This document shows positions 28,874 to 32,601 of a stretch of 64,000 nucleotides of DNA, one piece after another; the first letter of the stretch is position 1, and each line of letters opens with the position of its first letter. This DNA is from Paucibacter sp. DJ2R-2. GTDB taxonomy: Bacteria > Pseudomonadota > Gammaproteobacteria > Burkholderiales > Burkholderiaceae_C. Made by a program: the position numbers and the translations under genes. The notes under the pieces were generated by a model. The model was not told the origin of the DNA, searched no databases, and saw nothing but the letters and a program-made list of their open reading frames with translations. Location of the stretch: contig NZ_JAJIRT010000005.1 in NCBI RefSeq assembly GCF_025717675.1, forward strand, positions 186,001-250,000, given 5' to 3'.

Positions 28874-28961
28874 GTGAGCGTGACGGGCTGCGTGGTGAAG
28901 AAGGGTTAGCACCGGGGCCGGGGGCCGCGGATCAGCAAAGCGCATGAATCATAATCTGCCC

Positions 28962-29555
28962 ATGCTTGCACGAATGATGGCTTTTCTGGTGTGGGGTTTG
29001 CTGGCTTGCAGCGCGGTCTATTGGCTGATCCAGCTGATGGCCCGACCCGTGGCGGCGCCCCTCCATGCTCAAGTGGTGCTCGAGCAGCGCAGCGGCACGG
29101 CCGATCTGACGCGTTTGTTTGGTGCGGCGCCGGTGGCCGCACCCGAAGCCGCCTTGCCTGCGGACAGCCGTTTCAGCCTGCTCGGCGTGGTGGCGCCCAG
29201 GAATCTGCAGGCCAGTCAGGCGGGCGAAGGCGTGGCCTTGATTGCTGTGGACGGTGTGCCGCGCACCGTGCGTATCGGCGCCGTGCTGGACGGTGAGCTG
29301 CGCTTGCTGTCGGTTCAGGGCAATTCCGCGCAGCTGGGGCGCGATGGCGTGGTCAGCATGACGCTCAATCTGGCGCCACCGCTGCCGGCTGCCACCGGTT
29401 CCTTGCCCCCTGCGGCCAATTCGCCGACCGTGCTCGGTGGCCAGCCCATGTTGCAGGGTGATCCGGCCCAAGCGCCGTTCCGCCCAGCGTCGCTTCCGCC
29501 CGGCCAGCCTCCGGCGCCTGGGGGACTGGACTCCAACGGCCTGCCTACGCGCTGA
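28962..29555 (+). CDS. gspC: type II secretion protein GspC (HR domain only)
   Basis: Bitopic protein bridging the inner-membrane platform and the GspD secretin. One transmembrane helix near the N-terminus (MMAFLVWGLLACSAVYWLIQL) is followed by the HR domain (LFGAAP ... FSLLGVVAPRNLQ ... AVDGVPRTVRIGAVLDGELRLLSV) and a Pro-rich tail; no PDZ domain follows. Length is 197 residues from ATG 28962; ATG 28944 would give 203. Neither has a good Shine-Dalgarno sequence. A -10-like CATAAT at 28950-28955 would leave almost no leader for 28962. The gene is divergent from the gspG-F operon, as in other Burkholderiales. Confidence 0.88.
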   Translation: MLARMMAFLVWGLLACSAVYWLIQLMARPVAAPLHAQVVLEQRSGTADLTRLFGAAPVAAPEAALPADSRFSLLGVVAPRNLQASQAGEGVALIAVDGVPRTVRIGAVLDGELRLLSVQGNSAQLGRDGVVSMTLNLAPPLPAATGSLPPAANSPTVLGGQPMLQGDPAQAPFRPASLPPGQPPAPGGLDSNGLPTR

Positions 29556-30645
29556 GGCGCGGCTCACTGCCGCTGTCACGGTAGGCTCCATTGAGCGAAT
29601 CGACGCCGCTGCCCGTGTTCGGGCCGCGCGGCTCGGCGAGGTCGTGCAGATCGGTCAACAAGGCGGCGGCGCTGCGAATCATGGGCCAGGCCAGGGCAGC
29701 GCCGGTGCCGTCGGCGCTGTCCATGCCCAGCTCCAGCAGGGCTGAGGCATGGAAGGTGGCCAAGGCTTCGTCCAGGCCGCGGTGCACATGGCTGCGGCAG
29801 AACACGGCGTAGTCGGTCACCGGTGCGGCAATCTTGGCGGCCAGTTTGAGCGCGGCGCAGGCGGTGATGCCGTCGATGATGATCAGATGGCGTTTGGATG
29901 CGGCCACCAGCATGGCGCCGACCATCACAGCAAGCTCGAAGCCACCGAAGGCGGCCAGCACCTCCATTGGGTCGCTGACTTCGCGGTGGCGCGCTTGCGC
30001 CGCTTGCAGCACGCCGAGGATGTGGGCGAGCTCGTCCTGGCGCATATCGGGGCCGGACAGCACGAAATCGCGCACCGACTGGTCCATCAAGCGCGACAGC
30101 ACCAGGGCGGCGCTCTCCGCCGAGCCCTGGCCCATGCCGGCACAGGCCAGCACATTGCCCGGCAGGTTGTCTGAAATTTCCATGCCCACCCGGACCCCGG
30201 CATGGGCTTGCTCCAGCGTCATGGCCGGGCCGGTGCGGGTGTTGCGGGTGCCGTGGGCGATCTTGCGCGCCATCAGTCGGGCGTGCGGCGCCAAGGATTC
30301 GGCGATGCCGCAATCGACCACGGCCAGTTGCAGGCCTTGCAAGCGGGCAAACACCGAAACCGGCAGACGGTTCTGCAGGGCCAGCTGGGCCTGCTCACGC
30401 GTGCTGCGGCCCCATTGCTGGCCGATGCGGTCCACCACCATGCCATGATCGGCGGCGAACAAGGCCAGCACCGGGTCGCGGAAGCGCGGCGTCAGCGAGT
30501 TTTGCACCAGACCCAGGCGCACCGCCAAAGGCTCCAGCTCGCCCAGGCCGCCGGCAATGGCGGCATGCCGGTCGACGCGGTCGCGCAAGGCCTTTTCCAG
30601 TTCAGGATTGGCGGTCGGCGAGATCAGGGACTGGTGCAGGGACAT
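29545..30645 (-). CDS. CobT-like phosphoribosyltransferase homologue with altered active-site residues
   Basis: A 366-residue member of the nicotinate-nucleotide:dimethylbenzimidazole phosphoribosyltransferase (CobT) family, which normally makes alpha-ribazole phosphate for the cobalamin lower ligand. Family features retained include LFAADHGMVV, NTRTGPAMTLEQA, a GGFELAVMVGAML segment, IDGITACAAL and DGTGAALAWPM. Two residues differ from the usual pattern: the common GEMGIGNTT motif reads AGMGQGSAES (Ala169 where Glu is expected), and the usual GEGTGA reads ADGTGA (Asp312 where the catalytic Glu is expected). No other cobalamin gene lies nearby; neighbours are gspC (convergent, 11-base overlap) and ilvA. 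It may be a divergent CobT, an enzyme for a different base, or inactive. Confidence 0.75.
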   Translation of the reverse strand: MSLHQSLISPTANPELEKALRDRVDRHAAIAGGLGELEPLAVRLGLVQNSLTPRFRDPVLALFAADHGMVVDRIGQQWGRSTREQAQLALQNRLPVSVFARLQGLQLAVVDCGIAESLAPHARLMARKIAHGTRNTRTGPAMTLEQAHAGVRVGMEISDNLPGNVLACAGMGQGSAESAALVLSRLMDQSVRDFVLSGPDMRQDELAHILGVLQAAQARHREVSDPMEVLAAFGGFELAVMVGAMLVAASKRHLIIIDGITACAALKLAAKIAAPVTDYAVFCRSHVHRGLDEALATFHASALLELGMDSADGTGAALAWPMIRSAAALLTDLHDLAEPRGPNTGSGVDSLNGAYRDSGSEPRLSA

Positions 30646-30772: not shown

Positions 30773-32383
30773 TCAGCGCAGGAAGAGTTGATAGACCGGG
30801 TTGTTGCTTTCGTCTTCGAAAGGGTAGTTCAAGGAGTTCAGGAATTCCCGCAGCGCGGCATTGTCACCGCGCGGCACCTGGATGCCGACCAGGATGCGTC
30901 CGTAGTCGGCGCCTTGGTTGCGGTAATGGAAGAGGCTGATATTCCAGTCCGGGTGCATGCTGGACAGGAAGCGCATCAGCGCGCCCGGCCGCTCAGGGAA
31001 GATGAATCGGTAGAGGCGTTCGTTGCGCGCCAGCTCGGAGCGGCCTCCCACCATATGGCGCAAATGCTGCTTGGCCAACTCGTTGTCGGTCAGGTCCAAG
31101 GCCTGGAAGCCGCCCTTGGCAAAGGCGCGTGCCAGCTTGGCTGCTTCCTCGCGCTTCTGGGTGGCCACGCCGACCAGGATGTGGGCCTGGGCGGAATCGG
31201 AGATGCGGTAATTGAACTCGGTGACGCTGCGCGGTCCCAGCAGTTCGCAGAAACGCTTGAAGCTGCCGCGTTCCTCGGGAATGGTGACGGCAAACAGCGC
31301 CTCGCGGTGCTCGCCGACCTCGGCCCGCTCGGCGACGAAGCGCAGGCGGTCGAAGTTCATATTGGCGCCGCAGGTGATGGCGATGAAGGTCTGGCCCTTG
31401 CAGGCGTGCTCTGCCGCGTACTGCTTGACCGCCGCTACACCCAGTGCGCCAGCGGGCTCAAGAATGCTGCGCGTGTCCTCGAACACGTCCTTGATGGCGG
31501 CGCAGACGGCGTCGGTGTCCACCAGCACGAAGTCATCGACCAGGGCCCGCGTGATGCGGAAGGTCTCTTCGCCGACCAGCTTCACGGCCGTGCCATCGGA
31601 GAACAGGCCGACATCGTTCAGCAGCACCCGCTTGCCGGCCCGCACCGAGCGGACCATGGCGTCCGAATCCTTGGTCTGCACGCCGATCACCTTGATCTCG
31701 GGGCGCACCGCCTTGATGTAGGCGGCCACGCCGGAGATCAGCCCGCCGCCGCCGATGGCCACGAAGATGGCGTCGATCGGGCCGGGATGCTGGCGCAGCA
31801 GTTCCATGGCGATGGTGCCTTGGCCGGCAATCACATCGGGGTCGTCAAAGGGGTGGACAAAGCTCAGGCCCTGGGCTTTTTCCAGTTCCAGCGCGTGGCC
31901 ATAGGCGTCGGTGAAGCTGTCGCCGAACAGCACCACCTCGCCGCCGTGGCTTTGCACTGCGTCGATCTTGACCTTGGGCGTGGTCACCGGCATCACGATC
32001 ACGGCCCGGCAGCCCAGCTTCTTGGCTGACATGGCCACGCCTTGGGCATGGTTGCCGGCCGAGGCGCAAATCACACCCTGGGCCAGCTGTTCGGCGCTCA
32101 GATGGGCCATTTTGTTGTAGGCGCCGCGCAGCTTGAAGCTGAACACCGGCTGCTCATCCTCGCGCTTCAGCAGCACCTTGTTGCCCAGGCGCTTGCTCAG
32201 GCTTTTGGCCGGCGTCAGCGAGGTCTCTTTGGCGATCTCGTAGACGCGGGCGTTGAGAATGCGCTGCAGATAGCTGTTGTCGGAGGGAATCAGGTCGGGC
32301 ATGCCGGCCGCAGCCACGGTCTTGGCGACGGGTTTGCGGGTGTGGCGGGTGCCACTCTTGAGCGTGCGGGCGGGGCCGGCCAT
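30773..32383 (-). CDS. ilvA: threonine ammonia-lyase, biosynthetic (IlvA)
   Basis: PLP enzyme that deaminates threonine to 2-oxobutanoate, first committed step of isoleucine synthesis; 536 residues. The PLP lysine is Lys84 in FSFKLRGAYNKM; the phosphate-binding loop is GGGGLISG and CASAGNHAQGVA supplies a substrate-binding segment. Two C-terminal ACT-like regulatory domains (about residues 355-536) are those through which isoleucine inhibits and valine activates the E. coli enzyme. The ATG at 32383 has GGAG 5 bases upstream. The leader contains an intrinsic terminator and a palindrome, described separately, so transcription may be regulated. Confidence 0.95.
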   Translation of the reverse strand: MAGPARTLKSGTRHTRKPVAKTVAAAGMPDLIPSDNSYLQRILNARVYEIAKETSLTPAKSLSKRLGNKVLLKREDEQPVFSFKLRGAYNKMAHLSAEQLAQGVICASAGNHAQGVAMSAKKLGCRAVIVMPVTTPKVKIDAVQSHGGEVVLFGDSFTDAYGHALELEKAQGLSFVHPFDDPDVIAGQGTIAMELLRQHPGPIDAIFVAIGGGGLISGVAAYIKAVRPEIKVIGVQTKDSDAMVRSVRAGKRVLLNDVGLFSDGTAVKLVGEETFRITRALVDDFVLVDTDAVCAAIKDVFEDTRSILEPAGALGVAAVKQYAAEHACKGQTFIAITCGANMNFDRLRFVAERAEVGEHREALFAVTIPEERGSFKRFCELLGPRSVTEFNYRISDSAQAHILVGVATQKREEAAKLARAFAKGGFQALDLTDNELAKQHLRHMVGGRSELARNERLYRFIFPERPGALMRFLSSMHPDWNISLFHYRNQGADYGRILVGIQVPRGDNAALREFLNSLNYPFEDESNNPVYQLFLR

Positions 32384-32402
32384 GGGGTCTCCGATACAGA
32401 TC

Positions 32403-32417
32403 TGTTGCGGCGCAACA
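32403..32417. repeat. 15-base perfect palindrome upstream of ilvA
   Basis: TGTTGCG G CGCAACA, 20 bases upstream of the ilvA ATG and adjoining a possible -10 hexamer TATCAT on the minus strand (32417-32422). It could be an operator or form a small hairpin in the leader. No regulator can be named. Confidence 0.5.
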
Positions 32418-32473
32418 TGATAAGCCAGGCTTGTCTGGGGCCGATTCCAGCTCGGCTTGGCGCTTGTTTGGCC

Positions 32474-32505
32474 AAAAAAAACCCGAGCTTTTGCAAGCTC
32501 GGGTT
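32474..32505 (-). terminator. intrinsic terminator in the ilvA upstream region (minus strand)
   Basis: Perfect 11-bp stem AACCCGAGCTT / AAGCTCGGGTT with loop GCAA, followed on the minus strand by eight T's. It points towards ilvA, whose ATG is 90 bases further. On the plus strand there is no T-run, so it does not serve OsmC. A second small stem (CCACC / GGTGG, 32510-32527) adjoins it. Confidence 0.85.
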
Positions 32506-32601
32506 GAATCCACCATGGAGGCGGTGGAGGAGACAAACGGTGCGAAGTTGCAGGCTGCTGGGGTTTTGACGCCGGCTGGCTGCGCGCAAGAGCTTCGCTT
32601 G
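32474..32601 (-). ncRNA. candidate ilvA leader / attenuator or independent small RNA
   Basis: A promoter-like pair at 32608-32637 followed by a terminator at 32474-32505 on the same strand predicts a discrete ~128-base transcript. No leader peptide with an Ile, Leu or Val run and no Shine-Dalgarno sequence is visible in it, so classical ribosome-mediated attenuation is not supported. It is either an unusual ilvA leader that can terminate early or a free small RNA. Most of the 336-base gap 32384-32719 is explained by this unit, the palindrome and the promoters. Confidence 0.45.

Follow-up and report, generated by a model that had tools for sequence, protein, structure and literature searches.

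CobT, the nicotinate-nucleotide–dimethylbenzimidazole phosphoribosyltransferase, acts late in the synthesis of vitamin B12. The canonical form, represented by the Salmonella enzyme (PDB codes 1d0s and 1l4e) and by the NCBI equivalog family TIGR03160, carries Glu174, which binds the ribose, a catalytic Lys213, and Glu317 as the general base. ArsA and ArsB (PDB code 4hdk and others) are phenol-activating homologues with the same fold; they are encoded in tandem (PMC6461909), and both retain the GEMG and GEG(I/T)GA motifs in our alignments. The CobT of M. jannaschii (PDB codes 6pu6 and 6pt8) is a precedent for a CobT without Glu317; it retains the ribose-binding Glu150 and employs another acid, Asp52 (PMC9561151). 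No description of a CobT paralogue of the kind reported below was found in searches of open-access papers.

The window analyzed here, a stretch of 64,000 nucleotides from contig C34 of Paucibacter sp. DJ2R-2, encodes a protein of a subfamily that we term D (Table 1). The gene is full length, as the original prediction had it. Immediately upstream of it, in the same orientation, is an ilvA open reading frame (ORF) that probably contains the real ilvA start, and a gspC-like gene is convergent with D and overlaps its 3′ end by 11 bases. The predicted lack of cob or cbi genes nearby was borne out for the families tested, and the genome search that had been proposed located a second, canonical cobT on contig C1 (C1:307147) together with cobS (C1:310750) and cobU (C1:297461). 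D, flanked by ilvA and gspC, is not adjacent to this canonical cobT. No cobalamin riboswitch was found over the Rfam threshold in 20 kb around D or in 19 kb of the cob cluster. A match to the Rfam family RF02278 (‘Betaproteobacteria toxic small RNA’) is located just upstream of ilvA at 32473–32535 (−), and the same family was found in all eight other D loci searched; the function of this small RNA is given as unknown in a Burkholderia paper (PMC4603805), and it is listed in a Herbaspirillum paper (PMC7011215).

Table 1. Positions in the window of the D gene, its key codons and the adjoining genes.
Feature	Position	Strand	Remarks
CobT paralogue (D subfamily), 366 aa	29545..30645	−	Complete ORF, ATG start
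Asp312 codon (position of the general base Glu317)	29710..29712	−	From alignment
Arg284 codon	29794..29796	−	Invariant in D
Ile209 codon (Lys213 position)	30019..30021	−	From alignment
Glu177 codon	30115..30117	−	Near-invariant in D
Gly170 codon (Salmonella Glu174 position)	30136..30138	−	From alignment
ilvA (threonine dehydratase) ORF	30773..32536	−	Named from sequence reading, without family scan
gspC-like gene	28944..29555	+	Named from reading of the gsp cluster, without family scan

The D protein belongs to the CobT family in the broad sense, scoring 265.8 bits against PF02277 (DBI_PRT; curated cut-off 22.6), compared with 415 bits for the canonical CobT of the same genome. Against TIGR03160, however, D reaches 233.3 bits, below the cut-off of 319.3, and all nine other D proteins scanned also fall short (212–247 bits), whereas the canonical CobT of the genome passes with 435 bits; the original description of the protein as a non-canonical CobT is thus upheld. 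An AlphaFold model (pLDDT 83, pTM 0.85) matched 36 PDB entries at E ≤ 0.001, every one of them CobT or ArsAB, with CobT 1wx1 as the best (TM-scores 0.78/0.87), and the closest PDB match by sequence is ArsA. D is predicted to have the CobT fold. It also shares with CobT its full length, the ADHG motif (Asp66 and His67 in D) and several glycines.

Residues were compared in a reference alignment that combines E. coli CobT with 30 canonical relatives, with Salmonella numbering converted from that of E. coli. D was counted over 119 rows, which represent 109 distinct sequences because some genes were fetched twice via two collections. Both active-site glutamates had been predicted to be missing, and both are. 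Asp312, in the motif ADGTGA, aligns with Salmonella Glu317 (E. coli Glu318), as proposed. The other site had been assigned to Ala169 of the motif AGMGQG, but the alignment pairs Ala169 with Gly173, the residue before Glu174, and places Gly170 at the Glu174 position (E. coli Glu175). Residue 170 is Gly in 100 rows, Ser in 13, Ala in 6 and Glu in none; residue 312 is Asp in 119/119, so a carboxylate is retained there.

The changes in D go further than the two glutamates originally noted. The Lys213 position, occupied by Lys in 30/30 canonical proteins, is Leu in 111 of the 119 D rows (residue 209) and never Lys. Glu177 is found in 117/119 rows, where 29 of the 30 canonical proteins have Ser or Thr, and Arg284 in 119/119, where all 30 have His. 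At 33 positions a single residue is present in at least 93% of the 30 canonical proteins and in at most 5% of D. Within the base pocket, canonical CobT (n = 30) is constant at positions 84, 88 and 175 and has Tyr or Phe at 80, while in D each of these four positions is more variable than about 80–90% of sites. Positions 80, 88 and 175 are jointly mutated in the p-cresol-bound PDB entry 4kqj and presumably contact the base; position 84 was added to the set by us. Of the phosphate loop, D retains two glycines (Gly172 and Gly174). It varies at positions 265–266 and at position 180, which was matched by offset to M. jannaschii Thr156, a phosphate-binding residue (PMC9561151, section 4). Invariant or nearly so in D are Arg127, His131, Arg134, Arg137, Arg152, Glu156, Glu177, Ser250, Lys251, Asp278, Tyr279, Arg284, Ser285, Asp292 and Asp312. 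Most of this set differs from canonical CobT (Arg127, Arg134, Arg152, Glu177, Lys251, Asp278, Arg284, Ser285 and Asp292 among others), and Asp312, Arg284, Ser285 and Glu177 are located within or next to what were the active-site motifs.

D is present in 118 of 397 family genomes and in 38 of 115 genera; this draw was limited to genomes of at least 95% completeness with at most five candidates scored in each, so that the D count is a lower bound. Another sample of 99 genomes contains D in 24, including the Paucibacter genome itself, and the other 23 were read as loci. Sampling 399 genomes from the whole order gave just two matches at E ≤ 1e-90, one in the Paucibacter genome and one in a genome of the same family. 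The genera named in the contig titles of the best 80 of 178 relatives are Roseateles, Paucibacter, Pelomonas, Mitsuaria, Rubrivivax, Piscinibacter, Aquabacterium and Ideonella.

The interpretation that we favor, at a probability of roughly 0.7, is that D goes back to an old duplication of CobT, is usually located downstream of ilvA, and has been reshaped for some role other than cobamide synthesis. The more specific proposition, that D is a new, B12-independent enzyme or nucleotide sensor derived from an ilvA-linked cobT, and the first protein of the CobT fold known to work outside cobamide synthesis, seems to us evenly balanced.

The genomic position of D is highly regular, with ilvA upstream in 148 of the 152 loci read. 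Among 118 loci, 117 have a same-strand ilvA preceding D with a spacing of −1 to 209 bases, and the remaining one (L109) has just 275 bases upstream. Another 34 loci comprise 31 with ilvA upstream and three in which the upstream bases read contain none (3.4 kb in G748, 3.4 kb in G488 and 1.6 kb in G569). The neighbourhood of coq7, osmC, ilvA and gsp genes is conserved as a whole. The slot behind ilvA was also inspected in a set of 20 D-free genomes, which includes four from other families. In seven family genomes (L195–L201) it holds cobS, which is followed by a phosphatase-like gene in at least two, as judged by sequence reading. Five others (G013, G017, G048, G049 and G053) have gspC after ilvA, and no cobS or CobT-like gene was found between the two; in the remaining genomes the slot contains other genes or the contig ends there.

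A related protein, which we term T, follows ilvA in all seven genomes of genus g83 that were examined (L250–L255 and L219), with about 2.5 kb of other sequence between T and gspC in four of them (L251, L252, L253 and L255). Its motifs include GDVG, GSIG and GQGTGA; the residue at position 174 is Asp in three, Ser in three and Asn in one, and that at 317 is Gln in four and Glu in three. In trees without a deep outgroup, D forms a branch with support of 100/100, and D and T together form one of 100/96 that is separate from canonical CobT; this split may have come before or within the CobT of the family. T resembles D in its place behind ilvA, in this joint branch and in an RKI..G(T/S)RN loop, but is the less altered sister, retaining His289 in 6/7 proteins and Glu at 317 in three. 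Canonical CobT is also present in 6/7 T genomes. In G769 (99% complete), T is the sole PF02277 match and lacks both Glu174 and Glu317, and CobS and CobU are present; this altered protein may still serve cobamide synthesis.

Other altered CobT relatives were observed. Three genomes of genus g253 (L256–L258) carry a further strongly altered paralogue with GETGMGN and SESCNA motifs, and no ilvA was found near it in the 8 kb read. The second CobT of G029 (L057:7189-8271) has GDTG and GDGSGA motifs, with Asp at both glutamate positions; it groups with canonical CobT, and its match contains one stop.

The simplest history would be a former cob gene cluster behind ilvA, the cobT of which was remodelled in two lineages. 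Since cobS or T can occupy the same slot, the link between D and ilvA may be historical. This bears on an alternative in which D is a pseudoenzyme that binds and regulates its operon neighbour IlvA and handles no small ligand, an idea consistent with the loss of catalytic residues and with the near-constant upstream ilvA. The history of the slot (cobS in seven genomes, T in seven), the conservation of the whole region and the lack of ilvA from the upstream bases read at three D loci weaken that idea, and the (nearly) invariant Asp312, Arg284, Ser285 and Glu177 at former active-site motifs also argue against it; we consider it unlikely. A functional link of D to ilvA was also considered, including a route in which enamines produced by IlvA would contribute to phosphoribosylamine formation via TrpD; no test supported it.

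Whether D depends on cobamide genes could be read from genomes that carry it alone. Within the 397-genome draw, D occurs in 79/290 genomes with canonical CobT and in 39/107 without (counts obtained by subtraction; Fisher p 0.08 with kinship ignored) and is no commoner in the former; 39 of the 118 carriers have no canonical CobT, CobS or CobU. We selected 44 genomes in which no PF02277 match scores as high as canonical CobT. When every candidate was scored against a D profile, 40 of them proved to contain D as a single match, the gene being cut by a contig end in one (G639). Neither CobS nor CobU exceeds its cut-off in any of the 40, although a single CobU match of lower score occurs in G620. 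The four genomes dropped from the set are G769, with its T protein, CobS and CobU; G780, with a partial PF02277 match, CobU and a CobS fragment; G461, where D is a fragment at the end of a contig and neither CobS nor CobU is present; and G351, in which the D profile gives no match. The D-only genomes were read residue by residue, 30 and then ten more; among the latter, Asp312 is present in all nine proteins that reach it and Glu at 170 in none, and the D protein of G488 lacks Glu177. As a control, among the 56 genomes of the 99-genome sample in which a CobT scores as canonical, just two have neither CobS nor CobU, their lone CobT genes lying at G058:C5:238333-239328 and G079:C321:27416-28420, which means that a lone CobT is in itself no proof of a new role.

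The result for the 40 D-only genomes excludes cobamide assembly by D in them, in contrast to the Paucibacter genome, which has both cobS and cobU. It also bears on the suggestion, made in the original prediction, that D might attach ribose phosphate to another base. In this alternative D would be a base-activating phosphoribosyltransferase of altered specificity, with Asp312 in place of Glu317, transferring ribose phosphate from NaMN to dimethylbenzimidazole, a purine or some other base. The CobT fold and family, the carboxylate at the 317 position in 119/119 rows, the E317A crystal with products (PDB code 4kqi, by its title) and the M. jannaschii enzyme with its different acid are all compatible with it. 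D has nevertheless lost Glu174 and Lys213, its base-pocket positions vary, and a base-activating enzyme without CobS is hard to explain. D further departs from M. jannaschii CobT in lacking a Glu at the Glu150 site and in having no conserved acid around the position of Asp52; a candidate use of the archaeal Asp52 was rejected, as Asp is found in 4/119 rows at the neighbouring position 49. Base activation by D is accordingly disfavored and appears improbable to us.

Two other explanations are very improbable. D could form the second part of a two-subunit base activator, in the role that ArsB has beside ArsA, and the closest PDB match of D by sequence is ArsA, but ArsA and ArsB are encoded in tandem, whereas D lies on a different contig from the canonical cobT of its own genome and is found in 40 genomes without any second CobT. 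Equally, D could be a decaying relic of an ilvA-linked cobT, in keeping with the cobamide-pathway genes in the same slot of relatives and with the absence of any CobT-like gene from the ilvA–gspC gap of G013 and G017, but dN/dS is 0.03–0.24 in 17 pairs, dozens of residues are invariant, and no D protein is shorter than 320 residues in the 118 loci whose ORFs were re-derived from start to stop. The dN/dS values confirm the originally proposed selection on the gene, which is strong and purifying, speak against the inactivity through decay raised there, and indicate that the altered residues reflect changed selection. A sequencing or frame error was ruled out by the intact gene in 118 loci; given the re-derived ORFs, the stops flagged in 6/85 matches in a first tblastn pass are taken as matches overrunning the stop codon.

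If D is a remodelled CobT, it would have given up a specific aromatic base and would now be constrained by a new ligand or partner. D may still bind a phosphorylated, ribotide-like ligand in the better-conserved half of the site, and it is the better retention of this half that tentatively favors a ligand of the ribotide type; the variability of positions 180 and 265–266 makes this step weak, and that of position 180 counts even against a retained phosphate site. D might then act on its ligand without transfer to an aromatic base, by hydrolysis or with a small acceptor and with Asp312 as the base, or it might sense the ligand instead. Several observations run counter to a role outside cobamide synthesis. 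The title of PDB entry 4kqi describes CobT E317A ‘complexed with its reaction products’, from which it follows that loss of Glu317 need not abolish turnover and that Asp312 could stand in. The T protein of G769, the lone CobT of G058 and G079, and the joint lack of D, cobT, cobS and cobU in G013, G016 and G017, all from the genus of the window, point in the same direction.

D is thus a real and widespread paralogue that resembles CobT and yet fails the tests by which CobT itself is recognized. Genome surveys count CobT annotations, and the presence of D in genomes without the partner genes can mislead predictions of which organisms make vitamin B12. D also represents a well-bounded case of an enzyme fold switching its job, with a less altered sister, T, persisting behind ilvA elsewhere.
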